A DNA stretch of 37,374 bases from a virus (IMGVR_UViG_3300047546_000489:1-37374); one strand, 5' to 3'. Positions 1 through 24,656 are shown, numbered from the stretch's first letter. A program made the numbers and translations. The notes: a model not told the origin generated them from the sequence alone.

Positions 1-2714
1 CAATATTCAATAGAACAGGTCTTACCTTACTCCCTCAAAGAGTTGTAACCGCTACTGAAACTGGACCAGTCTATGGAAGACAAACCCTAGAATTACCACA
101 TAATACTATAGATGGTAATATCTCATTGTCTAGTTTATACTCTGCCGATGGTATTGATAAGATTGCAGATCTGATTAGCCAAATGATCAATGGTTCTGTG
201 GACGTTGCTAAGGACGATTGGATCTTTGATTTGCAGGCTGATAAGGAAGCTATTTCTAAAATTGTATTTATGATTCAGGCTGGTGTACCAGCTAAAAATG
301 TTGCACTATTCATGTCGCAACCTATAATCAGAGAGTACATTAGTAAACAAAAAATGCTTCGCAGTAAATTCAATGAGCCACTTGGTATCAAAGATCCTGG
401 CACATACTACAGAATTACTGCAAGAGATCAGATTTTATTTGGTAAAGAGTTTGGATTTGGCTTAACTAAAAAAGATTATGAGAAAGATAAACGAGTGCAG
501 AAATGGATGCTATGGCCAACAATTGAGAGACTAGCTAAAAATGCAGACAAGAATCTTTTCTCAGAACAGTCTCTTGAAGAGAATATCAATAAGGAGGGGT
601 ATACAGATGTAGATAGAGCAGTGTTTGCGCATTATCTAGAAATAGAAGAAATGGCAAACGGAGTTACCAATCTTACACAGAAGTTAAACTTTGATACCAG
701 TAAGACCTCTACACTGTTTGAAGCAAGAACAAAACTCAGCGACTTAAATGATCTAGCAAATGGTATATCACAGGAGTCTATTGATATGATTATCAATAAC
801 TCTCCTAAAGGTGCATTTAAGATTCAAGACTTTATCATTGATGTATTTAAAGATATATTCCCATTAAGGGATGGTGAGAAAGTAAATAATCACATAGTTG
901 ATACTTTGTTGGCACGGGATAAAAACTTTAGGCAAAAGCTGTCAAAAATTAAGAAAAGAATAGGTATGACAGATGATGAGGATGTGATCAATAAATATAG
1001 ATCAGATCTCATTTCATTTATCTTCCAACAGCATTACTATAAGTTTAATCCAAATGCAAAAACATATAATGGTGCAGAGATAACCTATGATGTTCAAGAA
1101 GTAAAGTCACTTAATAGCGGAGCTTTTGTAAAAGATGGTGTACTCTATGTAGATAGGACAAAAATTAAAGAGATATTTGATTCTGAAAAATATAAATCAG
1201 AACAAGCTTGGACATATGCAATTGCTCCTTTAGATCCATCTGTTTTATCTCTTTATGATAAAAATGTTGCAGAGGCATTGTATTATAAATACACATACCA
1301 AAGAGAGATTAATAGATCCATAGCTACCAATAGTTTTGAAAATGTATCCAAGACTAAGGAATTCTTTGAGTATAAAAAAGAATTTAAAGATGATGCATAT
1401 GCTGACTTCAAGGCATATGAGATGGTCCTTAGAGACAGGACACTGGATGGCTTGAATTACCATGGACACATGTTCTTTGGTAAAAGAGCATATGCTAAAC
1501 AAGTTATGGCTCTGAAAGATACTAATCCAGAACTGTTTGAAAAGTACCAGTTCCTTAGTGACTTAGAGATTGTTAATACTAGATATGGATCTACGGAAAT
1601 TTCTAACCTTAGAATTGGTGGAAGACCAAGAGGAAAGGACATAGAAAGACTCTACGACAATCTACAGGAACTTGCAGATCCAACAGTAAGAAAAGTAAAA
1701 GATTCTTTTGAGAATGCTTTGCTAAGCAATCTGTTTCAGAAGATGACACACTTTGCATTACTTCAGTCCGGTATTGATACTGGAAGCACGTTTAGTCTGA
1801 TTCCATTTGTATCAAATGAAAGTTATCTTAATCTAGTAAAGGAGCCATACGAACAGTTCTTGGCTGATTCCGATACTAAACCACTAGATTTATATGATAA
1901 CTTATTTGAAGCACAGTATTCTGAAGAAGGTAATAAAGCCCTGAAAGTAAAAGTAAAGGCCTTTGCTAAATCTATCTATGGTATAACACCATATCAAAGA
2001 TATACAAGAGAGTACATGTATCTTCCTGGTGATGATGAAAGTATAGAAATTGATCAACAGGGACGTGTTGATACGAGTATAGCCTTTGATAAAGTTAAAA
2101 TAGGAAAAGATAACTTGACTAATACTCTTATGTTTTTTCCATCTAATGTTAGCATGCTTACTGAAGCTACAATGAAGGAATTTGCGGAGGTTATAAGAAG
2201 CACTGGCAAAAAACAACTTGTAGTATTTAATGAGATAGATGGCAGAACTAAAAATGTACAGGGTAATAATTCTGCATATAGAGCAATGGGTAATATGGCT
2301 TATGGCATTGTAACTAAAAAAGGATCTATGCCTACTAAGCCTGATGGTAAACTAGATAAACCAGCAATGTTTACTGACGAAACCCTAGATGACAACAAAG
2401 TTATGATTGATGAAATGATCAAAGGTCTTGCTGCAAAACAAGCCGAAGGTTATGAGTTAGTCTTTGATTTTAGAGGTTATGGTCAATACATGGCAGGATA
2501 TAATGAATATGCAGAAAACAAAGAAGGAAAGCCTGATTTTGATGCATCAGCTCCAGAAACTTTTAACTATCTTTCGCAGCAGTTATTTGAGAACTTTGGA
2601 TACCTAAATCCTAATTACTTAAAGACACTTGAAGGTAGAAGAATTGTACAGTCTAGACAGCCTGTCACAGATGAAGAAATATTTGACCTTAAAAAATCTT
2701 GTAAATTAGCGTAA
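1..2714 (+). CDS. Large virion-type protein, 5' end outside window
   Basis: The frame is open from base 3 to the TAA at 2712-2714 with no stop, so the gene begins left of the window. 903 codons are visible, and a TTG at 126 is only an internal codon. I see no signal peptide or obvious catalytic motif. The last 180 residues form a distinct globular-looking segment with two hydrophobic strands (LVVFNEIDG and YELVFDFRGYG) and the block MAYGIVTKKG, which may be a small alpha/beta domain. The stop overlaps the next start (TAATG), so the two genes are translationally coupled. In crAss-like phages the giant genes in this position encode virion-packaged or ejected proteins beside the virion RNA polymerase. 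No DxDGD polymerase signature is present in the visible part. The structural role is inferred from size and context. Confidence 0.7.
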   Translation, partial: IFNRTGLTLLPQRVVTATETGPVYGRQTLELPHNTIDGNISLSSLYSADGIDKIADLISQMINGSVDVAKDDWIFDLQADKEAISKIVFMIQAGVPAKNVALFMSQPIIREYISKQKMLRSKFNEPLGIKDPGTYYRITARDQILFGKEFGFGLTKKDYEKDKRVQKWMLWPTIERLAKNADKNLFSEQSLEENINKEGYTDVDRAVFAHYLEIEEMANGVTNLTQKLNFDTSKTSTLFEARTKLSDLNDLANGISQESIDMIINNSPKGAFKIQDFIIDVFKDIFPLRDGEKVNNHIVDTLLARDKNFRQKLSKIKKRIGMTDDEDVINKYRSDLISFIFQQHYYKFNPNAKTYNGAEITYDVQEVKSLNSGAFVKDGVLYVDRTKIKEIFDSEKYKSEQAWTYAIAPLDPSVLSLYDKNVAEALYYKYTYQREINRSIATNSFENVSKTKEFFEYKKEFKDDAYADFKAYEMVLRDRTLDGLNYHGHMFFGKRAYAKQVMALKDTNPELFEKYQFLSDLEIVNTRYGSTEISNLRIGGRPRGKDIERLYDNLQELADPTVRKVKDSFENALLSNLFQKMTHFALLQSGIDTGSTFSLIPFVSNESYLNLVKEPYEQFLADSDTKPLDLYDNLFEAQYSEEGNKALKVKVKAFAKSIYGITPYQRYTREYMYLPGDDESIEIDQQGRVDTSIAFDKVKIGKDNLTNTLMFFPSNVSMLTEATMKEFAEVIRSTGKKQLVVFNEIDGRTKNVQGNNSAYRAMGNMAYGIVTKKGSMPTKPDGKLDKPAMFTDETLDDNKVMIDEMIKGLAAKQAEGYELVFDFRGYGQYMAGYNEYAENKEGKPDFDASAPETFNYLSQQLFENFGYLNPNYLKTLEGRRIVQSRQPVTDEEIFDLKKSCKLA

Positions 2715-10665: not shown

Positions 10666-12654
10666 CTAAAAAAGTGTTAATTGATATTGATTTTGAGAAC
10701 TAGTAACATTACTAATCTCTTTATATATACGATCTATATAGTATTTCTCGTTGATATCATAATCAGACCACGGAAGATCTATGTATTCATTGAACACACG
10801 TTGTTGCCATCTTCCAGATTCTGTCTGTATTTCTCTACCATCTGCATCATTACGTTTTACTATTTTACAACCTTTGTTAGACACATAGTAACGTACTATT
10901 TTCTGTAGTTCCCTGTTTACTCTTTCAACTCCAACAACACAAGTTTCAATAAACTTCCAATCTCCTTTTGCCTTTACACCTGCACAGTATTCAAATATAT
11001 TTCTATTGTCTCGAAGATAATGTTCTGGTAGTACATCATGAACGAAGTAATAGTAAATAGCTTTAGGGATGATTAGGAAACTTTTATTCTTATGGAGCGC
11101 CAGATCTGCAAATTCAAATCTACCCTTACACTTAGTTGCGTTATAATAATAGCAATCTTTGTCTTGGCTAAATATGTAATGCGGATTCTGCGACCTCAAG
11201 TTTTCCCACTCTTCCTTAGAACATAATTTGGTTTTATGTACAGCAATGTAATTATTTACATCGGCTAGGATTAGTTTGTTATACTGATCGTGTTCTAGAC
11301 TTAGTTGAGTCAGCTTCTCCCATCTGCTACAGATTTCTAGATACTTGTCTTTGTAATGTGCTGGTATCATCATCTCAAGACCATCTGTATTCTGCATCAG
11401 AGGAATAGATCCGGGAATCTCAGTACTAAGCATTTCATATAACATAGTCAGACATAGCTGACCATTTACAGTAATACGCATAGTAAACTCAGGATCATAC
11501 AGGAAACTATTCTCATCATTGCTAAGGCCATAGGTACTATTCAGAATAATCTTGTACACATAGTTCCTAGGATCTTTCTTCGGTATCTTCTTTCTTTCTT
11601 CAAAGAACCATTGATACTGTTCAGAAAACTCTTCTCTAGGTAAATGTGCTGGTGCCCATTTATTCATGATGGCTAGGTTAGGATAGAAACTAGTAACATC
11701 ACTAGTCATGATTATCATTCCATCTTTAGCCTCATAAACACCTGGAGTTGTAGCGCCATGTACACCACCCAAACCAAAGTCAGTTTTAACACCCTTATGT
11801 GTAATAGAATATTTGAATCCACCCTTTGTATTTCTTGTATCAAGAACAATGGATTTAAACTTATCTAGTACGCTCTTAAATTCAGGATGTTTAAACTTAA
11901 TGTAAGGTAGTATAATGTCACCTATCTTAATAGTTTCTCTTCTTGTCCTAAGCTGATTTAGTTCCCATTTACCCATCCCTGTTTTCTCACTTAAGAAATG
12001 CAGGAATAGCATCTTGGAGATTCGTGGTTCAGAAGCACTAAACATATCCAGATCATACTCTTTTGTCAATGCCTTACGTAAAGCTATCTGACTCTTGCTG
12101 AGTTCATATATCTTAGCCGTAGACTTAACGTCATTAATACAATACTGAATAATAGTATCTAGCTGTTCTTGTTTTGTAATGGATGTTGTATGATGAATTG
12201 GCATCTCTTGAATGTTATACCAATCCATGCTATACTGTATCCACTTTAGGCTAGACTTCTTTGCAGGATTATCCCAGTGATTTAGCTTGTAAAGATCAAT
12301 GCCTTTTATTACATTGTTCTTCCAGCCAGATTTAAAATCTTGTTCACTGATAATTCTTTGTGCCTCCTCGTATACTTCAGCAGCTATATCTTCGCCTCGC
12401 ATATTGTCATAGATGCCAACACCAAAGCGACTCATTATAAAAGATGTAATCTGATTGTCGAATGCCATACCATTAAAACTGATATGGAACTCGTCATCAA
12501 TTACATTATCTACAAGGAATGAATATAGCTTCTGTATATCATTACGAAGCCTAGATACTACGAATACTCTTAAATCTTCAGGATTCTTATAGTGCTGAGC
12601 ACATAAAACAGTACAGTCTACTAATGTCTCATAGTCTATAATCCAATGATTCAT
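10666..12654 (-). CDS. Family B DNA polymerase with 3'-5' exonuclease and C-terminal clamp motif
   Basis: 662 residues. Exonuclease motifs: Exo I D7-x-E9 (IIDYET), Exo II N61...D66 (SFNGMAFD), Exo III Y171-x-x-x-D175 (YCIND). Polymerase motifs: A at D319-VTSFYPN326, B at K368-IILNSTYG376, C at 422-425 reading NTDG, where only one aspartate of the usual DTD remains and Thr replaces the first. This matches compact viral PolB enzymes used for phage genome replication. The last five residues, QLTLF (658-662), are a canonical beta-clamp-binding pentapeptide. No clamp is encoded in the window, so the host clamp is the likely partner. A promoter-like site lies upstream of the preceding 123-residue gene. 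At 662 residues the enzyme is short beside T4 or phi29-type relatives of 570-900. Confidence 0.95.
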   Translation of the reverse strand: MNHWIIDYETLVDCTVLCAQHYKNPEDLRVFVVSRLRNDIQKLYSFLVDNVIDDEFHISFNGMAFDNQITSFIMSRFGVGIYDNMRGEDIAAEVYEEAQRIISEQDFKSGWKNNVIKGIDLYKLNHWDNPAKKSSLKWIQYSMDWYNIQEMPIHHTTSITKQEQLDTIIQYCINDVKSTAKIYELSKSQIALRKALTKEYDLDMFSASEPRISKMLFLHFLSEKTGMGKWELNQLRTRRETIKIGDIILPYIKFKHPEFKSVLDKFKSIVLDTRNTKGGFKYSITHKGVKTDFGLGGVHGATTPGVYEAKDGMIIMTSDVTSFYPNLAIMNKWAPAHLPREEFSEQYQWFFEERKKIPKKDPRNYVYKIILNSTYGLSNDENSFLYDPEFTMRITVNGQLCLTMLYEMLSTEIPGSIPLMQNTDGLEMMIPAHYKDKYLEICSRWEKLTQLSLEHDQYNKLILADVNNYIAVHKTKLCSKEEWENLRSQNPHYIFSQDKDCYYYNATKCKGRFEFADLALHKNKSFLIIPKAIYYYFVHDVLPEHYLRDNRNIFEYCAGVKAKGDWKFIETCVVGVERVNRELQKIVRYYVSNKGCKIVKRNDADGREIQTESGRWQQRVFNEYIDLPWSDYDINEKYYIDRIYKEISNVTSSQNQYQLTLF

Positions 12655-12660
12655 TAGTCA

Positions 12661-13032
12661 TTACTCGGTTACCTCTGTTTCAAAAAACTTTTTAAAGTCG
12701 TACTTGTCTGAGTTGAAAGCAAAATGATTTACAAATGCTTCGATATCAGATCTCTCTTCTAAATAATACTCTTGGTATGTTTCAAGAGTTCTTCTTTCTT
12801 CTTTAACCATTTTATCTGCAGACTTAGGATTCTTCCTAGGTTCTGGATCACCATTAGCATCTAGCTTTGTGATCAAATGGAATTGATCTTTCTTGTTCTT
12901 ACCGATAACAGCCAAGACTTTTAGCTGTGAATCAAAGATACATTCTACAAATGGACAGTCTTCCGTTGCAGGAATCATTTTAAACGTCTGGTTGTTCTTC
13001 CAACTAGACGTAAATAACATCATATTATTCAT
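12661..13032 (-). CDS. Conserved-looking hypothetical protein upstream of PolB
   Basis: 123 residues ending 6 bases before the polymerase start, so co-transcription is likely. The N-terminal half reads as short beta strands (CPFVECIFD, LKVLAVIGK, DQFHLITKLD), followed by a charged linker and two helices rich in Tyr, Phe and Glu. That is consistent with a small beta-barrel plus a helical tail. I do not recognise a family. The first-gene position behind a promoter-like site at 13057-13087, directly before the polymerase, suggests a replication accessory role. This is context only. Confidence 0.75.
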   Translation of the reverse strand: MNNMMLFTSSWKNNQTFKMIPATEDCPFVECIFDSQLKVLAVIGKNKKDQFHLITKLDANGDPEPRKNPKSADKMVKEERRTLETYQEYYLEERSDIEAFVNHFAFNSDKYDFKKFFETEVTE

Positions 13033-13041
13033 GTTGGTTTT

Positions 13042-13602
13042 TTAAAGGTGCTGGAACAAAGATATAGATTTAATCTCTGCCTTCAAATTTTCTTTCTCTA
13101 AATCTGGCTTTGAACATAACTCCCCAACATCACGTAAGATTTTCTCACTGACATTCAGTAGGTTAGCATATTGCTCATAATAAATTTCGGGATTTAGATA
13201 GCTGTTTATCTGATGATAATTAGACTTGTTTGCCATAAAAAACTTTAGGATTTTATTCTTAGTGTCAGCAGTCATAGTTGAATACTTACCTGTAAGAAAC
13301 TTATCCCAGTCTTGTGTGTACTCAGTCATATCAAAAACATAAACACCCTCGTCATCTACAGTTTCATAGTAAGAATGAAATAACTTATTGCTTGTAAGTT
13401 TATTCTTTTCAAACCTTCTAAATACGTCATCATCTCGTAGATGATATACACAGACAAACTTCATGTCTTCAGGAGCATGCTGACCAGTCCAACTGATATA
13501 ACTCTCAATTGGAACAGCCTCTGATCCTTTTCTAATATCCAAAAGCGGATATAAAAACAACCTAGACTTTTGAATATACTCTTTATGCAGTTTAGTTATC
13601 AT
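13042..13602 (-). CDS. Hypothetical protein, 186 residues
   Basis: No family recognised. The sequence is mixed alpha/beta with aromatic-rich strands (EDMKFVCVYHL, EGVYVFDMTEY), followed by helices (TKNKILKFFMANK, YANLLNVSEKILRDV) and a charged C-terminal helix ending in SISLFQHL. The ending recalls a clamp motif but lacks the leading Gln. The start is 2 bases from the stop of the PD-(D/E)XK nuclease gene, so it belongs to the replication operon. Its last codons contain the promoter-like site for the next genes. Confidence 0.75.
   Translation of the reverse strand: MITKLHKEYIQKSRLFLYPLLDIRKGSEAVPIESYISWTGQHAPEDMKFVCVYHLRDDDVFRRFEKNKLTSNKLFHSYYETVDDEGVYVFDMTEYTQDWDKFLTGKYSTMTADTKNKILKFFMANKSNYHQINSYLNPEIYYEQYANLLNVSEKILRDVGELCSKPDLEKENLKAEIKSISLFQHL
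13057..13087 (-). promoter_or_regulatory. Bacteroidota-type promoter upstream of the PolB cluster
   Basis: On the minus strand TTTG (13087-13084), exactly 19 bases, then TATCTTTG (13064-13057) matches the Bacteroidota primary-sigma consensus TTTG-N19-TAnnTTTG. The predicted start of transcription would fall near 13050, about 18 bases before the ATG at 13032. It lies inside the 3' end of the 186-residue gene and would give the polymerase genes an internal promoter. The CAAAGATA core also occurs elsewhere in coding DNA without a -33 partner, so the paired elements are what support this call. Confidence 0.6.
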
Positions 13603-13604
13603 GT

Positions 13605-14564
13605 TTATAGGGTGATTTTACCTGTTGCAAACTCATGAGGTAAAGCATAATATCGATTGTCATAATGATATCTAGCTACTTCAAGCTTGCTCTTAAGTTT
13701 TTCTCTCCATAATAACATAGTATTTTTTTCAACATCAAACACATAAACCTGCTGATATTTATCGATTACTAGGAAACTAAAGCTAATCTCTGATGGGTCA
13801 ATCTGCTTTGTGCAGGATACAAGCTCAATATACATTGCTGCCTGCATCCAGTAGTTATAGTACTCAACTGTATCTGCAAAATCACTAATAGTCTTACTAG
13901 TAGTTTTAAGGTCGCAAACTGTAATCTTAGAATCCTTTGTAATAATTCTATCTACAATACCTTTAATACCAAAAGGATAATCACTAATAGTACAGTTCAA
14001 CATGACCTCGCTTTCTACATAGTCACCAGATAAAGTATCCATAGCCATCTGATTACTTCTAATAATCTCTACTGAATTCTTTGCCCTAGTGTACATATCC
14101 TCATCAATAACATCCTTACCAGATCTATTCTTCAGGAACTCAAAATAACTTATGGCGTCATCCGTCAGGATTTTTTCTATTCTCTGCTCATCCGTTTTAA
14201 GTCTCTGATGAAAATTAACATCTTTAAGGATGTCAAGTATTTCGCTCTGAAAACTTGACATTGATTCATCTGTACGTCTCTGTTCTACAGCACTTCTAAA
14301 TACACGATCTATTACCTGTTTAGTTGGACCTGTAGGTACAGACCCAGAAGCAAGAACAAATTGCTTGTCAAATGATTCTGCATCAAGCAGAAGGCAGTGC
14401 AATAGCCTGCCCTCTACAAGATGCGTATCTGTTCTTTCCTCCTGTTGGTTTAGAATGTAATGCTTATAGAATATAGACGGTGAATACAATAACTTATTTA
14501 ATCCAGAGTAACTGAAATAAAACTTGTTCTCGTAAAATCTATCTTCTGCCTGGGGATCAAACAT
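13605..14564 (-). CDS. PD-(D/E)XK nuclease (RecB/Cas4/DUF3799-like exonuclease)
   Basis: 319 residues. The nuclease core is visible in order: EGRLLHCLLLD with H56, GIKGIVDRI with D205, VCDLKTT with D218-x-K220, and Q241-AAMY245. This is the G-x-x-x-H / D / D-x-K / Q-x-x-x-Y signature of Cas4- and exonuclease VIII-like enzymes. Members cut linear double-stranded DNA in recombination or genome processing. The N-terminus (SYSGLNKLLYSPSIFYK) resembles the phage exonuclease family DUF3799. The gene overlaps the preceding 361-residue gene by 8 bases and lies in the same operon as the Sak4-like ATPase and SSB-like protein, so a role in phage recombination is likely. No paired annealing protein is adjacent. 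Confidence 0.88.
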   Translation of the reverse strand: MFDPQAEDRFYENKFYFSYSGLNKLLYSPSIFYKHYILNQQEERTDTHLVEGRLLHCLLLDAESFDKQFVLASGSVPTGPTKQVIDRVFRSAVEQRRTDESMSSFQSEILDILKDVNFHQRLKTDEQRIEKILTDDAISYFEFLKNRSGKDVIDEDMYTRAKNSVEIIRSNQMAMDTLSGDYVESEVMLNCTISDYPFGIKGIVDRIITKDSKITVCDLKTTSKTISDFADTVEYYNYWMQAAMYIELVSCTKQIDPSEISFSFLVIDKYQQVYVFDVEKNTMLLWREKLKSKLEVARYHYDNRYYALPHEFATGKITL

Positions 14565-15642
14565 CTACTTCCTCTTTTTTGGTTAACATATACTCCTCGT
14601 ATGGAATTATTTTAATGTCCACACTTAACACATTATGCTTCTCAACCTCTTCGATTATATGATAATCTTTTACCTTATTGATAATCTTTTCAGCTAACTC
14701 GTTATAGATTTCTTTAGTAAGGCATCCGTTTTCTTTAAACATTGCCACTGCATCTATATTAGAGGCATGCTCCATATGTCTAACTGCTGCCATAAAAGTC
14801 TTATGCGCCTTAGTATTACGATGTTTGTAATAGCTAATGGCATAATTTACTTCTTTTAGTAGCTTCCATATATAATAAGAAGATGGGACTATGTTACAGT
14901 TATATAACATGTTCATTGCCACTGACTTATCTTCATCACTACCCTTAAGCATCATAAGTAAGGTATCGTAGATATCATCATCTATAGTAACCTTATCTAT
15001 ACCTTGGAACAAACTATTTACACTAACAACAGGAAGTTTTCTAGACAGCATGTTGTATAGAATAAATACACCATCATCTGTGATATAAAACTTTCTACGT
15101 TGATTAGCATACATTGTCCAGTCTTCATACCTGCTATTGATTTCGCTAGTATACATTACAGAGGTTTGCTGATTAAGACGATCAGCTGTAACTCCAGCTC
15201 TAGACGACATGAAGTTTATGAATTGATTCTTAAGATCAACACCACAGTTATCAAACTCTAGCATATAACCATGGCCGTCTACTAGCAGTGCCCTAGAATC
15301 TACAGAAATATCATAGATTGAGTTATACTCTGAGATATGATCATTACCAATAACGAAACTTGCGTTACTAATATCATTAGTGATTTTCAAATCATATCTC
15401 TTACAAATCTCTTTTATGTCATCCTTCTTTAGATTATTCTTTGGAAGGATAAAACCTTTGGCACCTTTAGGTATACTGGTTATATCTGTATACGCAGTAA
15501 ACATTTTAACTATCTTCCTATAATTATCCTCACTAAGGAAATGGATATTATAGTGCATGCCGGGTCTAACCATAATGCTAGACCCTTCAATAAACTTTAA
15601 TCTACCTAACTGTTCTTCTGTTAATTTTATGCTTCTCTGCAT
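14557..15642 (-). CDS. Unrecognised 361-residue protein next to the MoxR/VWA pair
   Basis: No firm family. Residues about 58-98 (AKGFILPKNN...YDLKITNDISNASFVIGND) follow the strand-helix-strand-helix rhythm of a BRCT-like fold: a hydrophobic strand, a helix with D-I-K-E-I, then a region ending in F-V-I-G. This is weak and seen by eye only. Later comes MMLKGSDEDKSVAMNMLYNC, which is mirrored in the 144-residue gene at 17997-18431. The C-terminal third is helical. The start lies 6 bases from the MoxR ATPase stop, and the gene is probably part of that module. Function unknown. Confidence 0.75.
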   Translation of the reverse strand: MQRSIKLTEEQLGRLKFIEGSSIMVRPGMHYNIHFLSEDNYRKIVKMFTAYTDITSIPKGAKGFILPKNNLKKDDIKEICKRYDLKITNDISNASFVIGNDHISEYNSIYDISVDSRALLVDGHGYMLEFDNCGVDLKNQFINFMSSRAGVTADRLNQQTSVMYTSEINSRYEDWTMYANQRRKFYITDDGVFILYNMLSRKLPVVSVNSLFQGIDKVTIDDDIYDTLLMMLKGSDEDKSVAMNMLYNCNIVPSSYYIWKLLKEVNYAISYYKHRNTKAHKTFMAAVRHMEHASNIDAVAMFKENGCLTKEIYNELAEKIINKVKDYHIIEEVEKHNVLSVDIKIIPYEEYMLTKKEEVDV

Positions 15643-15648
15643 ACGTTA

Positions 15649-16818
15649 TTATTTTACGGCCATTTTAACAATTTCAGCATCCATCATAAGCTTAGTAAAT
15701 TTGGTTTTGTTACCGTTAATTACATTCTTAATGATGTGATATTTAATGTCATTAGTAAATACATCTGACGTTACAATGTTCTTTACACGCTCCAGTATCT
15801 TATCAGTCACTGGTTCTGTATTACTATAGTTAACAGTATAGTTAATAAGACGAGTAGCTAGAACACTTGCAATGTCAGCACGATAATTAGCACCTGTTCC
15901 AATTGTTTCATGCAACTCAGACTTTACGTTATCCCAGCTCTGATTCAAGAGAACCTGATTAGGAGAAATCATCTTGTCAAGTCTGTTATTGATAAACATG
16001 GTAAACATTGTACCGAATGTCTCACCTACAGAACCTTCTGCAATAAACTGAATCATTGGAAGATTGTTCTCAAAAGAATCAAAGCTGCTAATAGAGTTAA
16101 AGAATGTAGTAATACTACGAGCATTAGTCTCCTTAGTAACAAGCTCTGGATGTAACAATAGGAAGTTGATACAACGGCTATCTAGATTTGCAGATTCTGC
16201 CCATTTTGCCCAGCAGTCAATATCAAACTTAAGATTAGCTGTAATGAAACGAGTCTTCTGTGCAACGTCAATAGATGTTACATTGTAATCACCATTGTCA
16301 GGATTCGTAGTCAAGATAATGTGCCAGTCTTTTGGAAGCTTCCATGAGATGTATTCTTGACGGTCAATCAAATCCATACAAGCCTGTAGGAATCTAGAGT
16401 CGGCACGAGTATAGTCATCTAAGATAAGAATACCACCGTCACCTTTACCTTGAATCCATTCGGGAGCAGCATGAGTCATTCTCTTCTCACCTGTTGGTAT
16501 ATACTTGTTCTGGATATACAGAGGCAAAGTATTCTCAGGAACCCATTTAGTTACTTCATCTTTCTTAATTTCAAATTCTTTCATTGGAAAACCTGTGAGG
16601 TCACCAATCTCTTCGATCTGTGCAAGATTCAACTTTACAACATGCAGACCTAGATCTTTACCTATTTCTAGAATAGTGCTAGTCTTACCGATACCTGCTT
16701 CACCCTCAACAGCAACAGCTACTGGAATCTTTCCATTCTGCTGAAGATATCTGTTGTTAGTTACAATATGATTAACAAAACTCTTAAGTTCTGAAGTATT
16801 TAAATTTACTTGTGCCAT
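15649..16818 (-). CDS. MoxR-type AAA+ ATPase
   Basis: 389 residues. Walker A is G39-EAGIGKTS47, Walker B is the hydrophobic run ending D134-D135 (ILILDD), and sensor 1 is N172 in ILTTNPDNGD. The ATDNP/TTNP-type sensor loop and the short N-terminus before Walker A fit AAA_5/MoxR ATPases, which remodel or activate partner proteins and are nearly always paired with a VWA-domain protein. That partner is the next gene, beginning 1 base after this stop going upstream (16820-18022). The pair is cytoplasmic. The phage target is unknown. Motif calls are solid; the role is inferred from the MoxR-VWA paradigm. Confidence 0.9.
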   Translation of the reverse strand: MAQVNLNTSELKSFVNHIVTNNRYLQQNGKIPVAVAVEGEAGIGKTSTILEIGKDLGLHVVKLNLAQIEEIGDLTGFPMKEFEIKKDEVTKWVPENTLPLYIQNKYIPTGEKRMTHAAPEWIQGKGDGGILILDDYTRADSRFLQACMDLIDRQEYISWKLPKDWHIILTTNPDNGDYNVTSIDVAQKTRFITANLKFDIDCWAKWAESANLDSRCINFLLLHPELVTKETNARSITTFFNSISSFDSFENNLPMIQFIAEGSVGETFGTMFTMFINNRLDKMISPNQVLLNQSWDNVKSELHETIGTGANYRADIASVLATRLINYTVNYSNTEPVTDKILERVKNIVTSDVFTNDIKYHIIKNVINGNKTKFTKLMMDAEIVKMAVK

Positions 16819-16819
16819 C

Positions 16820-18022
16820 TTAGTTTAATTTAATTTGTGGTCCTTTTAATGATTTGTTTATGCTACCACGGGTAGATATTACCCAAAGCATTTTGCCTTT
16901 TACATTTATATCCGTATCACATTCGCCATCAGTAAGATAGACTAGACACGTATACTTTCCAGTATTTGCATTATAATATTCTAACACAGGATCAAAGCTA
17001 GTACCACCTCTTCCGTGAACTACTAGTTCTTGACCCCTTTTATATTCTCCAATATAACTTATAGATGTATCACACTGTATTACTGTGATATCACTACCCG
17101 TTTTATTAATGTGATCTATCTCATGAAAGAATTCTTTTAACTCTTTATCTGAAACAGATCCGCTTGTATCAATTGCTACAAGAATGTGCCGGCGTTGTTT
17201 AATCTTCAGACCTGGATTCTCCTCAAATCTTTTATTAAACTTACGTCTAAGCTTTTTGGTATATACCTTTTGAGAACCTCCAGTAAATCTTCTAAGATAA
17301 CCTTTCCAATCAAACTTTGGTGGTTCTTTTACATTCAATCTTTCTAGAATACTCTTTAGTTCTCCTGGTATGTTACCCCTTGACTTTTCTACCTGATCTT
17401 TAATTTCAGATAGAACGTGTTCTGTTTGCTTTTCAATCAGCTTCTTCTCTGCATCACTAAGGTTTTCAAATTCACCCCATGATTCGTGATCAGGTATCAT
17501 GTCTCCCATTTGAGTATGGGATTGACCAGAACCTTGATCATCCATCATCTGTTGAATTCTCTGACTAGATTCGCTATCAGGATTGTTATCAAGTTCATTC
17601 TTGATAAGATCATAATATGTACGCCAGCCTACCTTTTCAGGAAGATTCAACTGTACAAACGGATCTGTGTTGATTGTACAGCCACCATCTGGTAAGTTAA
17701 TACCATCAATGTACTGATTAATCTCTAGATCCATTGCAATGTTAGACAGCTTCTTATCATAGCCAGGATGTTCAGAACAGATATGAAAGAATGCAATATG
17801 CAACAGCTCATGCTTTAATAGTCCGAGCTTATGGGGATCAGATAATGACCCCCAAAACTCAGGATTAATTACAAGCTGATAGTTAATATTATTTTTAGCG
17901 ACACCTGCAGTAGGTACCTTATCAGACCATATCTTATTCAAACTAATGAGAAACAAACCATAGAATGGTTCTTTAAGCATTAGTTCTTTACTGGTCTTAG
18001 CTAGTGAATCTTGATGATTCAT
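16820..18022 (-). CDS. VWA-domain protein with metallopeptidase-like N-terminus
   Basis: 400 residues in two parts. The N-terminal part has H71-ELL-H75 (HExxH), with possible further ligands in NIAMDLEIN near 95-102, as in the putative metallopeptidase domain DUF2201_N. The C-terminal VWA domain has a complete MIDAS: D285-TSGS289, the GGTSFD threonine near 341, and LTDGECD around 365. A Glu/Gln/Ser-rich linker separates them. This two-domain layout is the COG3864 type that pairs with MoxR ATPases, and the MoxR gene follows by 1 base. All key residues of both domains are present, so both metal sites could be functional. The upstream 144-residue gene overlaps this start by 26 bases. Confidence 0.9.
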   Translation of the reverse strand: MNHQDSLAKTSKELMLKEPFYGLFLISLNKIWSDKVPTAGVAKNNINYQLVINPEFWGSLSDPHKLGLLKHELLHIAFFHICSEHPGYDKKLSNIAMDLEINQYIDGINLPDGGCTINTDPFVQLNLPEKVGWRTYYDLIKNELDNNPDSESSQRIQQMMDDQGSGQSHTQMGDMIPDHESWGEFENLSDAEKKLIEKQTEHVLSEIKDQVEKSRGNIPGELKSILERLNVKEPPKFDWKGYLRRFTGGSQKVYTKKLRRKFNKRFEENPGLKIKQRRHILVAIDTSGSVSDKELKEFFHEIDHINKTGSDITVIQCDTSISYIGEYKRGQELVVHGRGGTSFDPVLEYYNANTGKYTCLVYLTDGECDTDINVKGKMLWVISTRGSINKSLKGPQIKLN

Positions 18023-18431
18023 TCTTAATAGGTATTAGTTTTAAATTAAAATCACTTAGGAAACTGAATCCCCATTCCATCATGTTTCTTTTTATGGAAA
18101 CCGAAAACTTATCTAAGAAATATTCCATAGCTTCATCCGAAACATTATGATATACAATCTCATTATACAATGAGTTATATGTAACCATGCTACCAAATTC
18201 TATATGCCTGCAGATTAAAGCTAACTGATTAACTATAGTCTCCATAAACACAGTCTGCCTACATTCTGTATTTGCTTCTTTATACATGATCAACAAATAC
18301 GGCAGGTTTTGCACTACATCTATATGCCTAATTGTTTCTGCAGCAATTGTCAAGTTATCCTTGTCACTTGACTGCATCATCTTAAGAATGTTATCACAAA
18401 TCTCTGGTGTTAACTTTAGTTCATTAGTCAT
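17997..18431 (-). CDS. Small helical protein sharing a motif with the 361-residue protein
   Basis: 144 residues, predicted nearly all helical, HEAT/ARM-like in feel (NILKMMQSSDKDNLTIAAET near the start, then several amphipathic helices). The segment M-M-x-S-S-D-K-D-N-x-x-x-A matches M-L-K-G-S-D-E-D-K-x-x-A in the 361-residue protein of the same operon. The two may therefore share one repeat unit or protein-binding element. Its 3' end overlaps the VWA gene by 26 bases, indicating translational coupling to the MoxR/VWA module. Function unknown. Confidence 0.7.
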   Translation of the reverse strand: MTNELKLTPEICDNILKMMQSSDKDNLTIAAETIRHIDVVQNLPYLLIMYKEANTECRQTVFMETIVNQLALICRHIEFGSMVTYNSLYNEIVYHNVSDEAMEYFLDKFSVSIKRNMMEWGFSFLSDFNLKLIPIKNESSRFTS

Positions 18432-18765
18432 TGATATCCAATGTTTTAAGCATCCACGGTTGTGGATTATTCATAAATAATATCCATTCTCTTGCACTTG
18501 GTATGTAACCATTGCAATCTTCTTTTACATGTTGTTCTCCAACATAACGGGTGTAAACTTTCTTGCCATCAGAATTGATGAAAGAAGCACCAAAGATTCT
18601 TTCACATTCAAATATTCCCTCGCTGTGATGACGGAATAGACGATGCATACTATGACCATACCAGGCCTTAGTTTCATCAAACCAATCATGAATGTCTGTG
18701 TAATCTTCTAGTTTACCACCCCATTTTTTGACAGAACTTTTTGCGTGTTCATGGGGATGTGCCAT
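18424..18765 (-). CDS. DUF6915-like protein
   Basis: 113 residues from the ATG at 18765, which directly follows the upstream stop. A longer reading from a TTG at 18798 is possible but overlaps that gene, and related proteins as I recall them begin MAHP. Landmarks: MAHPHEHAKSSVKKWGG, DIHDWFDETKAW, FRHHSEGIFECERIFG, YVGEQHVKEDCNGYIPS and a Trp-rich tail. These match a conserved family of phage and plasmid proteins known to me as DUF6915, rich in His and acidic residues that could bind metal. Its function is not known. It is adjacent to a DUF6878-like gene. Confidence 0.75.
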   Translation of the reverse strand: MAHPHEHAKSSVKKWGGKLEDYTDIHDWFDETKAWYGHSMHRLFRHHSEGIFECERIFGASFINSDGKKVYTRYVGEQHVKEDCNGYIPSAREWILFMNNPQPWMLKTLDIND

Positions 18766-18766
18766 A

Positions 18767-19138
18767 TTATTTTTTATAGATATCGAGTTCCCCAACAATA
18801 GTTGTTAAATCTCCTGACTCACTATTTGGTTCTTCTACATATTGAATACCTTCAATATCCCATTCCTTTTCTACAAAATTTATATATAATGTACCTCTAC
18901 CACCTTCATTGTTATACCAATCATAACCATAATGGGCATTAATAATCTGATTTCCAATCATCTGTACAATTTCTAAAACACTCTCATTATCTACATCAAA
19001 CTCATACCCTTCCTCATTATAATATCTCCATTCATCTATGTCTCCACTATCTCCACTACCAGAAAAATCTACTTCTACTTTATAAATACCTGCTTCTTTT
19101 ACAGCCATCATAGCTGATACAATCTGTGCGTCTGTCAT
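18767..19138 (-). CDS. DUF6878-like protein
   Basis: 123 acidic residues. The recognisable blocks are VEVDFSGSGDSGDIDE near residue 22 and YDWYNNEGGRGTLYINF near residue 72. They match the GSGDSG ... YDWYNNDGG layout of the uncharacterised family I know as DUF6878, found on mobile elements and phages. The many Asp, Glu and Gly residues around these blocks suggest a metal-binding or compact beta fold. The gene overlaps the GIY-YIG-like gene upstream by 4 bases and ends 1 base before the DUF6915-like start, forming a coupled pair. Confidence 0.75.
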   Translation of the reverse strand: MTDAQIVSAMMAVKEAGIYKVEVDFSGSGDSGDIDEWRYYNEEGYEFDVDNESVLEIVQMIGNQIINAHYGYDWYNNEGGRGTLYINFVEKEWDIEGIQYVEEPNSESGDLTTIVGELDIYKK

Positions 19139-19557
19139 TTGTTTTGCTTATAAAATTTACCAAGAATGTTTCCGTTAAGCCACCTGTCTGATTCTAAAAC
19201 TTCAAATTTGAATTGATACTTTGTCTCATTGTAAGACAGTTCAGATTTAGAATAGCAGATTTTAAGGATGGATCTCTTGATAACTATACCATCCTTATGT
19301 GCTTGCTTTAAGACATCATTACTACTGTAGTAGTTCTGATATGTTGATTTACGTACACGTTTATACGTCTTTTTACGCTTATCTGTAGGCAGTGCCTTCT
19401 TGCTAAGCTTGGTTTTTACATCTGCAAAAAAGTTTTTCTTACCTATGTATGCAACAGCTTTGTTATTTATTGTTGCTTCCATAATGTATATAAAACCAAT
19501 TGCACCTTCAGGAATCATGTCTTCTGTAAACACGACTCCATTATATATCCAACTCAT
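19135..19557 (-). CDS. GIY-YIG-like phage nuclease
   Basis: 140 residues. G21-FIYIM and A36-YIGKKNFF43 correspond to the two strands of the GIY-YIG fold in the divergent form seen in T4-like phage proteins (G-x-I-Y and Y-I-G-K-K-N). They are followed by a basic stretch and YYSSNDVLKQA, then SKSELSYNETKYQFKFEVL, where Glu could be the metal ligand. Phage members are called Seg-like or putative homing endonucleases, but here the gene is embedded between replication genes with 4-base overlaps on both sides, more like a resident repair or recombination nuclease than an inserted mobile gene. Activity unproven. Confidence 0.7.
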   Translation of the reverse strand: MSWIYNGVVFTEDMIPEGAIGFIYIMEATINNKAVAYIGKKNFFADVKTKLSKKALPTDKRKKTYKRVRKSTYQNYYSSNDVLKQAHKDGIVIKRSILKICYSKSELSYNETKYQFKFEVLESDRWLNGNILGKFYKQNK

Positions 19558-20522
19558 TTCAGTAATGTATGTTTAAGGATTGGCCTCAAGATTTTATCTA
19601 CTGCATCAATACCATGAACTTTAACAGAGTCTGACAAATCTTTTTCCAGTTTAAGATGTATGCCTGGTATCTGATACAATGCGTTATACTTTGCCATTGC
19701 CTCCATTCCAACCTTATCATTATCAAGTAGAGTACAGATAGACTTATACTTTACTTTATATAGATTGATTACCTCCTTGCGGATTATACTATTCTCACTA
19801 TCCGGGGCAACTACTTCTACAGGATACCCCATAGAGTCTATACACATTGCATCTTTAAGGGAGCTGCATATTATCAGATACGGTTTCGTAAACTGCAGCT
19901 GGTCAGTACCTTGCAGATAGTCTCTGACTTTTATGAATTTATAATCTGAACTTTTGGGTCGGTATATCTTACATATCTGGTTACTTGAATTATAATAACC
20001 ATAAATATAATTACCTCTTACATCAAAGCCCGGTTTGTCAATGCAAGTAAAGGCATAGTAATCAATAGGTCTTACATTAAACTTTTCTAATGTTTCAGAA
20101 CCTATGTTATACTGCATCCAGTAGTTAGCATCTAGATTATTCCACGGTCTTTCTACAACAGTAGACAATTCATATTTGTTTTCCTCGACTATAGGACTGA
20201 AGAAATACCCGTTCTTATTTTTCTCTAGGAAGACTGAGTAGTCTTTCATTATCATATGAACGGTATCTGAATAGTCTAGTTTATATAATTCAGATACTAG
20301 ATTTACATCACTTCCGCCGAAGCCGGTAGAGAAATCTTTCCATTTATACTTACCGTCCCTATAATAGATAAAGAAACTAGGGTTCGTATCCTTATGATTG
20401 AATAAGGATTTCATCTTAACACTTTGACCTGTAAGCTTTTCGGTTAGCTTACAATAATATTCATATATCCAAGTAGATGGAACCTCATCTATTGATAATA
20501 CTATGGATCTTGTACTAAGCAT
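19554..20522 (-). CDS. DnaG-type primase with TOPRIM domain, zinc ligands lost
   Basis: 322 residues. Residues 39-75 (SLFNHKDTNPSFFIYY, then FSTGFGGSDVN) align with the zinc-ribbon region of DnaG primases (CPFH...TPSF...CF.CG.GGD), but every cysteine is absent. The TOPRIM part shows PYLIICSSLKDAM (214-226), where the usual catalytic Glu-Gly of EG..DA is S-S-L-K, followed by LLDNDKVGMEA with D267 and D269. This altered TOPRIM occurs in crAss-like and other phage primases as I recall. The protein would synthesise RNA primers at the fork with the DnaB-like helicase. A strong terminator precedes it in transcription order, so its expression may depend on readthrough. Confidence 0.85.
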   Translation of the reverse strand: MLSTRSIVLSIDEVPSTWIYEYYCKLTEKLTGQSVKMKSLFNHKDTNPSFFIYYRDGKYKWKDFSTGFGGSDVNLVSELYKLDYSDTVHMIMKDYSVFLEKNKNGYFFSPIVEENKYELSTVVERPWNNLDANYWMQYNIGSETLEKFNVRPIDYYAFTCIDKPGFDVRGNYIYGYYNSSNQICKIYRPKSSDYKFIKVRDYLQGTDQLQFTKPYLIICSSLKDAMCIDSMGYPVEVVAPDSENSIIRKEVINLYKVKYKSICTLLDNDKVGMEAMAKYNALYQIPGIHLKLEKDLSDSVKVHGIDAVDKILRPILKHTLLK

Positions 20523-20524
20523 GC

Positions 20525-20564
20525 TGTAAAAAAATTAAAGGGGACAGTTGATTCTGCCCCCTTT
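20525..20564 (-). terminator. Intrinsic terminator after the SSB-like gene
   Basis: AAAGGGG-A-CAG (20537-20547) pairs with CTG-C-CCCCTTT (20554-20564) around a 6-base loop, giving a 10-bp stem with one A/C mismatch. On the minus strand it is followed by AA and a run of T (20526-20536 reversed). This is a classic intrinsic terminator placed between the SSB-like stop (20585) and the primase start (20522), and it could attenuate expression of the distal half of the block. Confidence 0.85.
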
Positions 20565-20584
20565 GTTATCTTATAAGTTAACTA

Positions 20585-21274
20585 TTACAACTCAAAGTCA
20601 TCAGCCAGAGACTTCTTAGTTGTACCCTCTCCAAAAGTTTTAACCTCTACAGTCTTGCTTTTTTTGATGTGAACTTCAGTATTAAACTTTACTACTTTAC
20701 TTTTTACTTCATCGATATGAGCACCCTCATATGCTATACCATCCTTAGACCACTTTGGAAAATACAAATCATGATTAGTATAACCTGCCTTGTTCTGATA
20801 CTCTTTGCCTGCAATACATACACGCAAAAACTTATTAGCAAAAGGCTTATCATAATTAAACTGATTGATTAATGAATCTACAGTATCATGCTTTTCATCT
20901 TGAGAATCTAGCCATGCTGATGACCCAGTCTCCTTACATAAATTCTTAATTGCCTTTAGGATCTCCTCATCTCTTTTAATGACATTACCCTTTGGAGTTA
21001 TACCATCTGCAAATGGATACTCGGTAAGCTTTACACGGCCTACCTGACCATCATGACGACCCAAGCCTGGATTATCTTTATCAATATAAAATCCTTCAAA
21101 GTCATCACCTAATGCAGGACCTTCAACATCTAGAATGATATTGAAAGCTTCCTTATTATAAGGTGTTGCTTCAAGTCGGATGTTATAAATTTTTACAGAT
21201 GCATTACCCGGAGATAATGTCTTTGATACAGATGACGATGATCCGTTTTCTTTAATGTTCTTTGTACTAATCAT
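20585..21274 (-). CDS. Probable single-stranded DNA-binding protein
   Basis: 229 residues from the ATG at 21274. An upstream TTG at 21313 would overlap the ATPase gene and is less likely. The central region shows strand-rich sequence (ASVKIYNIRLEATPYNKEAF, DDFEGFYIDKDNPG, FLRVCIAGKEY, HDLYFPKW) compatible with an OB-like barrel, and the C-terminus ends in acidic ADDFEL, similar to the acidic hydrophobic tails with which SSB proteins contact partners. It lies between the Sak4-like ATPase and the primase, the expected place for an SSB in crAss-like genomes. No sequence motif is diagnostic, so the call rests on context, tail and my recollection of similar phage proteins. Confidence 0.65.
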   Translation of the reverse strand: MISTKNIKENGSSSSVSKTLSPGNASVKIYNIRLEATPYNKEAFNIILDVEGPALGDDFEGFYIDKDNPGLGRHDGQVGRVKLTEYPFADGITPKGNVIKRDEEILKAIKNLCKETGSSAWLDSQDEKHDTVDSLINQFNYDKPFANKFLRVCIAGKEYQNKAGYTNHDLYFPKWSKDGIAYEGAHIDEVKSKVVKFNTEVHIKKSKTVEVKTFGEGTTKKSLADDFEL

Positions 21275-21284
21275 GGTTTTAAAT

Positions 21285-22028
21285 TTAGTCGATGAAGATT
21301 TTAGACCAGTCAACTGTTACGCTGCCGTCCTCATTAATTTTTGAAATTTCAAATTCTTTATTCTTTAGATGCGTAGGTCTTGCACCACAAGATACATCAT
21401 CCTTGGTCTTGAAACTAAGAATGTTGGTATCTCCTTTTCTGTACAAATATCCGATAGCATCCGAGTGCTGCATGATAATTCTTTTAAGTTTACCTGTCAG
21501 GTCTAAATCCATTGATGTGAATTCAGCCCCGTTCTTTTCCAGCAGCACATCCTTTACGTGACCAGCAAGAATAACTCTTGGTGCCCATTTCTTAATATAA
21601 GCAATAATAGTTGAGAATGCTTCACGAAGCCAAGGATAACCGGCACCGTTAGGCATGTTAAGTATGCTACCATACTTAGCTTTACCCTCTGTAAACCAGG
21701 ACTTTCCCATTGGAGATTGAGAATAAAGTTCTTCAGCAAATGGAATACAAATTTCCTCTAAAGCAGTAATTGTATCTATAGCTACATACTTATAGGGATA
21801 ACCCGCATCCTTAATTGCTTTACCAATTGCTTTAATTTCATCTACATTGGCAGCACCAATCTTTAAAGCCTCAACATACTTAGAACCAGATTCTAAATCT
21901 AGAATCAAGCAATCAGGTAGATCAGCAAATAACGTAGTCTTACCTACCTTAGGCTTACTAAAGATTACAAGATTCTCTGGGCTTGATGTATCAGGCTTCT
22001 GTTTCTTTGTTGGCAATACAATTTCCAT
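21285..22028 (-). CDS. Sak4-like RecA-family ATPase
   Basis: 247 residues. Walker A is S24-KPKVGKTT32 and Walker B ends at D85 in YVAIDT, followed by helical segments and VILAGHVKD. Size and the early Walker A fit AAA_24/Sak4 ATPases, a compact RecA-like group that promotes single-strand annealing together with a phage SSB. The SSB-like gene follows by 10 bases. The gene overlaps the upstream 181-residue gene by one base. It could instead be another RecA-like phage ATPase such as a helicase loader, but neighbours favour recombination. Confidence 0.85.
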   Translation of the reverse strand: MEIVLPTKKQKPDTSSPENLVIFSKPKVGKTTLFADLPDCLILDLESGSKYVEALKIGAANVDEIKAIGKAIKDAGYPYKYVAIDTITALEEICIPFAEELYSQSPMGKSWFTEGKAKYGSILNMPNGAGYPWLREAFSTIIAYIKKWAPRVILAGHVKDVLLEKNGAEFTSMDLDLTGKLKRIIMQHSDAIGYLYRKGDTNILSFKTKDDVSCGARPTHLKNKEFEISKINEDGSVTVDWSKIFID

Positions 22029-22573
22029 TAGCTTTTAATTATTTGATTTAGCCACTTCTTTCTGCTTACAGGTTTCTGCAACATGATTGCTGCTAAATCT
22101 CTAAGAGTTATTCTATCTAGAGGACAGTCCTCATCTGGATCCATGATCTCATCAAACGTATCAAACGTAATTATCTGAGAATCAGTATCTTCAACTTTTG
22201 TTAGAGCTGCAACTGCCTCTAATTCACTAACTGGAACAAGATATCTACGGTCACTGCTATTTTCTAGCTCAACAGAATCATATTCTTCTTCCCAGTATTT
22301 GTTGTATTTCCACTTATACAGGGTTCTTTCATCTGTTTCAGGTTCAAATTCTTTATTTACAAACTCAGTGTAAATATCCTGTCCTTTCTTTAACTGACTT
22401 GGAAATAAACTAACATGCAATTCAGTCTTTGTATATGGCTTGTATGCCATTGTAGGTACAAACAACGGATCATCTATACCGAGTGCCTCAAATGTTTTTT
22501 GATGATACTCTACAAGATTTTGCATCCTAGCTTTTTTATCAAGCAGGTTCTTCTTTTCTTGAGTCTTAATCAT
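22028..22573 (-). CDS. Conserved-looking protein between helicase and recombination ATPase
   Basis: 181 residues with one-base overlaps on both sides, so it is translated in step with the helicase and the ATPase. It is acidic in the middle. The N-terminal helix carries LLDKKARMQNLVEYHQKTFE, and the C-terminus reads ITLRDLAAIMLQKPVSRKKW, a motif that looks conserved and may be a short helical docking element. I do not recognise a family. A helicase-loading or coupling role is possible from position alone. Confidence 0.75.
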   Translation of the reverse strand: MIKTQEKKNLLDKKARMQNLVEYHQKTFEALGIDDPLFVPTMAYKPYTKTELHVSLFPSQLKKGQDIYTEFVNKEFEPETDERTLYKWKYNKYWEEEYDSVELENSSDRRYLVPVSELEAVAALTKVEDTDSQIITFDTFDEIMDPDEDCPLDRITLRDLAAIMLQKPVSRKKWLNQIIKS

Positions 22574-23562
22574 TATTTTGTATTTAAACGTTTCTCTTGT
22601 TTCGGTGGTGTCGGTATCTCTACTACACTCATGCTTTCAAAATTACCTCTGAAGAAACTCATCCTGGTATCACCATTCCTACATTTCAGGAAGTGCATTA
22701 CCATAACTCTTTCATCATCAATAATATATCTTTCAGGACCGTAGTACCGAATCTTGAAATACCCTGGCCTGTTTAGACCAACAACAACGTCAGCATGCTG
22801 AAGCAAAGCATCGGCACCCATAAGATCTGAAGATAAGATATAGTTACCAGCCCTACCATCTTCATTTCTCTCTGGATTATCAATGTTTCTATTAAGCTGA
22901 CTTAAAATAATAAACGCAATAGGATATCTTCTCTTAAGTTTTGTAAGAGTTTCTGCAAATTCATAAAGCATATCCTGCTTATTCTGTCCATTGTTTACCT
23001 TAAGCAGGTACGAATGGTCAAGAGTAATAATCGTATTGACGTATCTTGGAACTTCTCCCTCCGTATTAATGTGACTTTCCATGTAATCAACGATTACCTC
23101 TTCAATCTCCTTAACAGTCATGGGATTTTCTACTACGTCAATAGGATACTTTACTCTAATCTTTGCATAGTCATAGCATTTTATAAGAGTTTCATCATCT
23201 AGCTGACCATTAGCACTACACAAATCCTTGTATGATCTATTAACCACACTGGAGAATTCACGTAATGCTGTTACTCTGGAAAGCATCTCGAACTGAAATT
23301 CTAATATCCTAAATTCTTCACCTTTATTCAGTACAAATGCGCTGTTTACAATATTGTCTTTTACTAAGGTCTTACCAGCACCAGACCTACCTGCAATAAC
23401 AGTTAGAGTATTCCACTCTATACCATCGGTAGATGCATCATTAAATTTAGGCCAGGGAGTTTTGATACTACGTATCTTTCCTTCCTTCCTTCCTTTCATG
23501 TACTCTAGCGCCTGGACAAAACCATCTTTCTGCCCTTTCCAAGCATGATTTTTTTCTACCAT
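22573..23562 (-). CDS. DnaB-like replicative helicase, C-terminal domain only
   Basis: 329 residues. Walker A is G58-RSGAGKT65. The H2-like strand ends in NTIITLDH, and the H3/H4 region has AFIILSQLNRNIDNPERN followed by SSDLMGADALLQHADVVVGLNRPG, the arrangement of DnaB C-terminal ATPase domains. The N-terminal DnaB scaffold domain is absent, since the full helicase is usually 450 or more residues and here the RecA core starts within 50. It unwinds the fork for PolB and works with the primase of the same block. The start at 23562 has a small hairpin and 35 bases before it. Confidence 0.9.
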   Translation of the reverse strand: MVEKNHAWKGQKDGFVQALEYMKGRKEGKIRSIKTPWPKFNDASTDGIEWNTLTVIAGRSGAGKTLVKDNIVNSAFVLNKGEEFRILEFQFEMLSRVTALREFSSVVNRSYKDLCSANGQLDDETLIKCYDYAKIRVKYPIDVVENPMTVKEIEEVIVDYMESHINTEGEVPRYVNTIITLDHSYLLKVNNGQNKQDMLYEFAETLTKLKRRYPIAFIILSQLNRNIDNPERNEDGRAGNYILSSDLMGADALLQHADVVVGLNRPGYFKIRYYGPERYIIDDERVMVMHFLKCRNGDTRMSFFRGNFESMSVVEIPTPPKQEKRLNTK

Positions 23563-24370: not shown

Positions 24371-24656
24371 ATGTAAATCGTTGGTCTAAGGCAAGTTGTG
24401 TATAATCACTTTCTAAAGTTCTGAACTTATGGGTAGTATCTAACTCTGGATACATCTCTGCTACAATCTTTTTTGCTTTGTCATAATTGATTCCAAATAT
24501 AGAAAGAGCATCATACAATCCCTTAGCCTTTACATATCTTTTGTTACTAAAAACAATGAAGTTGTATTCCCCATTGTTTGGATCTAGAAAACCACGGATT
24601 GAAATTTTTTCTGGTAACGGTGTATACCTTTTAGTAGATGATTTTTGGCTTTTCAT
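24339..24656 (-). CDS. Hypothetical protein, 105 residues
   Basis: ATG at 24656. A TTG at 24665 would lengthen it by three residues. It overlaps the UDG gene by 26 bases and the next gene by 32 bases. Basic N-terminus (SQKSSTKRY), then a strand-helix pattern (EYNFIVFSNKRYVKAKGLYDAL, INYDKAKKIVAEMYPEL) like a compact DNA- or nucleotide-binding fold. No family recognised. The long overlaps show how compressed this operon is. Confidence 0.65.
   Translation of the reverse strand: MKSQKSSTKRYTPLPEKISIRGFLDPNNGEYNFIVFSNKRYVKAKGLYDALSIFGINYDKAKKIVAEMYPELDTTHKFRTLESDYTQLALDQRFTYDDQTVLRYP

Follow-up and report, generated by a model that had tools for sequence, protein, structure and literature searches.

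We identified a four-gene module on the minus strand of an IMG/VR virus record of 37,374 bases (the window), in which a MoxR-like AAA+ ATPase and a VWA protein are encoded next to two partners of 144 and 361 residues, here called U144 and U361. The two partners share a homologous all-helical domain of about 110 residues, which profile and pairwise comparisons identify securely, and U361 very probably carries a BRCT-like fold in its N-terminal part as well. By analogy with known MoxR/VWA systems, we propose, at a probability of roughly 0.4, that the module may encode a phage remodelling machine of the AAA+ type, to which the two paralogous partners are dedicated. The four genes are the following:

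14557..15642, minus strand: U361, 361 residues, predicted BRCT-like fold with an insert, followed by a C-terminal ARM/HEAT-like domain; dN/dS 0.16-0.20
15649..16818, minus strand: MoxR-like AAA+ ATPase, 389 residues; phrog_1297 'ATPase', E 6e-35; best solved relative midasin, E 1.4e-11
16820..18022, minus strand: VWA protein, 400 residues, DUF2201_N zincin domain and DUF2201 VWA domain (Pfam E 2.2e-17 and 8.5e-16; phrog_1314 E 1e-65)
17997..18431, minus strand: U144, 144 residues, stand-alone helical, ARM/HEAT-like; overlaps the start of the VWA gene by 26 nt

These open reading frames (ORFs) lie exactly where the original prediction placed them and abut or overlap, with a spacing of -26 to 6 nt. 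Comparison with four close relatives gave dN/dS values of 0.04-0.24 for the four genes, indicating purifying selection and therefore that all of them are real.

The original prediction held that both partners contain the motif M-[ML]-x-[SG]-S-D-x-D-x-x-x-x-A. We found the literal motif only in U144 (from residue 18), while the U361 copy (from residue 231) has its alanine one residue early; an alignment with a one-residue deletion brings the alanine columns into register. The accompanying suggestion of a shared repeat was right but understated the likeness. A Smith-Waterman alignment of U361 to residues 2-108 of U144 scored 72 against a shuffle mean of 35, a score reached by none of 1000 shuffles, and HHalign of the two family profiles gave a probability of 97 and an E-value of 6.3e-11 over 109 columns (1e-14 with a deeper sequence set), with the homologous part at about residues 215-325 of U361. 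The AlphaFold (AF2) models of U144 (pLDDT 86, seven helices) and U361 (pLDDT 85) resemble each other in their succession of helices, and in both the first hairpin turn holds the motif; the shared element is therefore described as an ARM/HEAT-like domain. Thus, the two motif regions, whose structural dissimilarity had been named as a possible refutation, match in the models.

18342..18380, minus strand: U144 residues 18-30, MMQSSDKDNLTIA, an exact match to the motif, located in the turn of the first helical hairpin
14917..14952, minus strand: U361 residues 231-242, MLKGSDEDKSVA, the motif minus one residue
14638..14994, minus strand: U361 residues 217-335, helical domain homologous to most of U144

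Foldseek with the U144 model returned nothing at E <= 0.001, and PDB sequence searches with the U361 and U144 profiles gave nothing convincing. The best VIA match of U144, an importin-alpha ARM structure, reached a Z-score of 5.1, too low for a family name, and a weak hit (E 0.12) between a short relative of U361 and phrog_269, a family of phage helicase loaders, was dismissed as chance. We also considered the motif as an acidic loop that binds the metal-ion-dependent adhesion site (MIDAS) of the VWA domain; position 25 is acidic in 77% of U144 and 86% of U361 sequences, but a helix N-cap explains this equally well.

A 32-residue profile of the motif hairpin detected five more proteins in the related contig G010 and two in G005 (68-338 residues), most of them small and otherwise unrelated, with the hairpin usually near the C terminus. 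The clear matches had E-values of 2e-6 to 0.003, as compared to 0.75 for the best reversed sequence; the last match listed for each contig is weak (E 0.14 and 0.3 for the two). The hairpin may thus be a transferable docking tag.

G010:5809-6108, 20808-21116, 36944-37186, 117769-117975 and 4793-5809: hairpin matches, the last one weak
G005:29144-29446 and 1333-1581: hairpin matches, the last one weak

The N-terminal part of U361 showed a strand and helix pattern resembling BRCT domains, noted ahead of any model, in two segments (residues 55-103 and 180-216) separated by an insert. The AF2 model then gave the order beta1-alpha1-beta2-beta3-alpha2-beta4-alpha3, with pLDDT mostly 75-92 over the fold.

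15334..15480, minus strand: U361 residues 55-103, predicted first BRCT-like half, beta1-alpha1-beta2-beta3 (from AF2, VIA rows 55..216 and HHalign to LigA BRCT)
15106..15333, minus strand: U361 residues 104-179, rapidly evolving insert that separates beta3 from alpha2
14995..15105, minus strand: U361 residues 180-216, predicted second BRCT-like half, alpha2-beta4-alpha3

Foldseek aligned the model with the PARP1 BRCT domain at a probability of 0.98 (38 columns, rmsd 1.0, E 0.31) and with RFC1 at 0.51. VIA gave Z-scores of 6.2 for the BRCT domains of bacterial LigA (DnlJ) and PARP1, 6.0 for XRCC1/Lig3, 5.8 for REV1, and 5.2 for RFC1; because unrelated helical folds reached 6.4 on a different part of the model, these scores are not decisive by themselves. 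With the insert removed, HHalign matched U361 to LigA BRCT sequences at E 2.8e-5 over 73 columns, while 20 column shuffles gave at least 0.027 and 15 other families of the block at least 0.05. Together, these comparisons make a BRCT-like fold very probable. Binding of DNA or phosphopeptides is putative; the Rfc1 BRCT domain binds DNA (PMC9293009). The predicted likeness to the RFC1, LigA, and PARP1 domains lies in the beta-alpha-beta-beta-alpha-beta-alpha order and register. In contrast to them, U361 has an insert of about 76 residues, a sequence below Pfam thresholds, and a fusion to a helical domain unseen elsewhere.

The VWA protein is a fusion of a DUF2201 metallopeptidase and a VWA domain, and a predicted peptidase. 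Both Pfam domains (PF13203 and PF09967) scored above their gathering cut-offs, with 64.0 bits against 23.2 and 58.6 bits against 26.4. In keeping with the original prediction, its MIDAS and HExxH sites are intact, and both are invariant in 23 aligned relatives. The protein stops with its VWA domain at about 400 residues, an architecture shared by the aligned relatives. A PDB sequence search with the VWA profile gave no match.

17783..17812, minus strand: zinc-binding motif HELLHIAFFH, VWA residues 71-80, with H71, E72, H75, and H80 invariant (23 sequences)
17156..17170, minus strand: MIDAS DTSGS, VWA residues 285-289, with D285, S287, S289, and the further ligands T341 and D365 invariant (23 sequences)

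A tblastn search with the VWA protein returned 323 phage records, many of them annotated 'HNH endonuclease'. The same name is given to this metallopeptidase family in phrog_1314 and in GenBank records such as OR602862.1 and NC_021782.1 despite the DUF2201 domains, and is a misleading annotation.

For the ATPase, the predicted set of intact Walker and sensor residues held in part. The Walker A motif, sensor-1 asparagine, arginine finger, and sensor-2 arginines are conserved among 20 aligned sequences, but Walker B reads L-D-D rather than D-E, and both aspartates (D134-D135) are invariant in the same alignment. We call the ATPase MoxR-like because the catalytic Walker B glutamate is missing. The Pfam AAA_5 model scored below its gathering threshold (13.1 bits against 22), while a PDB search with the MoxR profile recovered the AAA+ modules of midasin (E 1.4e-11).

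16681..16704, minus strand: Walker A GEAGIGKT, MoxR residues 39-46
16414..16428, minus strand: Walker B LILDD, MoxR residues 131-135, with aspartate in place of the catalytic glutamate

In some relatives these genes are interrupted. The MoxR gene of L036 carries a group I intron at 3604-3830 (Rfam RF00028); inserts, mostly of about 1 kb, split MoxR in L060, L061, L080, L252, and L276-L278 and VWA in L049. Apart from the one in L036, the inserts fell below Rfam thresholds where scanned.

To assess conservation of the neighbourhood, we used the first 80 IMG/VR contigs retrieved with the VWA protein (52-99% identity) and 58 further loci, 138 contigs altogether. Among the 80, a U144-like gene precedes VWA in 78, and, where there is enough sequence, MoxR comes after VWA in 65 of 65 contigs and a U361-like gene, or two, after MoxR in 50 of 50. 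Two U361-like genes are present in 25 of the 43 contigs that extend at least 2.5 kb past MoxR. Only two of the further 58 loci lack U144, and a U361-like gene follows MoxR wherever the sequence suffices. The U361-like proteins encoded next to MoxR are short and helical-only, BRCT-like plus helical, or doubled. Thus, the four-gene module is kept in nearly all 138 contigs, and the random neighbours that would have counted against the prediction were not seen.

The module is flanked on one side by genes for a DnaG-like primase, a SegE-like GIY-YIG protein, and DUF6915 and DUF6878 proteins, and on the other by those for a PD-(D/E)XK nuclease and a family B DNA polymerase; it is part of a conserved replication block in a large family of environmental phages that are probably crAss-like. 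Relatives reach about 124 kb, and one of them, G003, has recognisable terminase, portal, and major-head-protein families. The window has no crAss-like terminase; tblastn matches of the G003 terminase were mostly to crAss-like phages. Profile searches in four classified Crassvirales (phi14:2, cr55_1, cr116_1, and crAss001) found none of the four genes.

The pairing of MoxR with a vWA-metallopeptidase is already known from group 2.2 jumbo phages (PMC7824862) and from Schitoviridae, as N4 gp24 and gp25 (PMC4193335, PMC2784036). The domains are the same here, with the MoxR-like ATPase adjoining a VWA protein that has an N-terminal metallopeptidase domain. Both of our profiles matched Moorella phage MTATph1, Bacillus phage PBS1, Vibrio phage D505, and Salmonella phage FSL SP-076. 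In these four phages, unlike in the present module, the ATPase is listed ahead of the VWA gene, Walker B has a glutamate after its first acidic residue (DE/EE), where ours has aspartate, and neither U144 nor U361 was detectable in a profile search. In the named-phage collection, tblastn found no match to U361, U144, or a divergent U361, and the hairpin pieces gave only one pair of matches at E=4. Thus, the MoxR/VWA pair itself is known; the paralogous U144/U361 partners are new, and a probable BRCT-like fold comes with them.

Outside these phages, NorQ/NorD, RavA/ViaA, and CbbQ/CbbO likewise combine a MoxR ATPase with a MIDAS-bearing VWA partner (PMC9976466); the present module differs in the zincin domain of its VWA protein and in two extra partners with a common domain. 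The vWA-MoxR ternary systems (VMAP, iSTAND; PMC7159879) also add dedicated components to MoxR and vWA, and their effector-associated domains, common to neighbouring proteins, are a precedent for domain sharing (PMC7159879). In contrast, the VWA protein of our module carries no variable effector domain, and the module lies in a phage replication block and is constant in composition across the clade. A reading as a vWA-MoxR-VMAP conflict system was ranked low on account of the constant composition and the lack of an effector.

In the NorQ/NorD pair, the ATPase ring carries the VWA domain, which extends a finger into the pore and holds an acidic client patch through its MIDAS (PMC9976466, PMC13036017); ATV p618/p892 (PMC4124505) are a further precedent. 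In the remodelling machine that we propose, the VWA domain would similarly plug the ring, and its MIDAS would grip a client or an adaptor. The helical domain of U144 and U361 would serve as a common docking part, used alone by U144, that either is gripped by the VWA protein or docks onto it; binding of the two partners to that protein is plausible, as a prediction. The BRCT-like domain of U361 would take the complex to phage DNA ends, junctions, or a replication protein, where ATP-driven pulling, perhaps together with zincin cleavage, would remodel or remove a protein while phage DNA is replicated or recombined. The earlier suggestion of a replisome target gains some support from the BRCT-like fold and from the gene position between primase and polymerase; the substrate is conjectural, and we treat targeting to DNA or the replisome as a working hypothesis. 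MoxR and the VWA-metallopeptidase form a core gene pair of N4-like phages and are present in many jumbo phages. Two dedicated partners, one of them BRCT-like, inside a replication block offer specific handles on the client of this pair, and a role in DNA metabolism becomes testable against the published virion-assembly proposal.

Several observations weigh against the remodelling machine. The glutamate-to-aspartate change in Walker B may slow ATP hydrolysis, and the conserved S-x-D-x-[DE]-N turn may be a mere helix cap. The Foldseek E-values of the BRCT matches are 0.3 or worse. Pfam BRCT and BRCT_2 did not match U361 of the window, and the best E-values among relatives, 0.18 (PF00533) and 0.016 (PF16589, in a paralogue), were below the cut-off; we named the fold BRCT-like because the gathering score was not reached. 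Moreover, the flanking gene order, that is, the whole replication block, is equally syntenic, so that adjacency is no proof of cooperation among the four proteins. Last, the group 2.2 jumbo-phage pair, which has these same domains, has been proposed in print to act in virion assembly (PMC7824862).

In a corresponding reading of the present module, the MoxR/VWA-peptidase would mature or assemble structural proteins, with U144 and U361 as client adaptors. The interacting ATV proteins p618 and p892 have been assigned to tail development (PMC4124505), and some genes near the N4 gp24/25 homologues of roseophage RPP1 encode virion proteins (PMC4193335). However, the present module lies inside a replication block, in G003 the structural genes are on the other strand, and one of its partners has a BRCT-like fold of the DNA-repair type; we consider an assembly chaperone rather unlikely. 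We regard it as unlikely that the four proteins have no joint function and that U144 and U361 are old duplicates placed beside MoxR/VWA merely through block synteny. Gap sizes revealed no special cohesion of the four genes, as gaps above 100 bp are about as rare at their joints as at the edges, except at D6915|U144 (10/72), and neighbouring genes are equally conserved in order; yet in most relatives the U144 and VWA genes overlap, and the gene adjoining MoxR is always U361-like, in one of several architectures. A host-directed or counter-defence complex that unfolds or cleaves a host factor, to which the fast-evolving U361 and U144 would be the adaptors, is improbable: of the four close relatives compared, three or four show a higher dN/dS for these two genes than for MoxR and VWA, and U361 is duplicated in 25 of 43 relatives, but positive selection was not seen (dN/dS below 0.25), the module is present in nearly every relative as a core gene would be, and no defence or effector domain was found.

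As a long shot, the remodelling machine could be a DNA-guided protease that extracts proteins, similar in function to SPRTN/Wss1 together with p97. In this reading, U361 would locate DNA ends or nicks through its BRCT-like domain, the shared helical domain would pass DNA-bound proteins to the MIDAS of the VWA protein, and the ATPase and zincin site would extract and cut proteins that block phage replication.

Further observations concern the surroundings of the module. In most relatives, the SegE-like GIY-YIG protein (window 19135-19557; 56-99% identity) keeps the same position within the block; such constancy is unusual for a mobile homing endonuclease, and the protein may belong to the core genes. 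Across the block (window 10666-23562), most genes are without a clear Shine-Dalgarno sequence and are preceded by A/T-rich DNA, which would fit a Bacteroidota host. Two plus-strand ORFs at window 126-2714 (862 residues) and 2714-8446 (1910 residues) had no PHROG match and no confident Pfam match, and ORFs in G003 are as long as 3072 residues. A gene of the uracil-DNA glycosylase superfamily is located at window 24631-25335.

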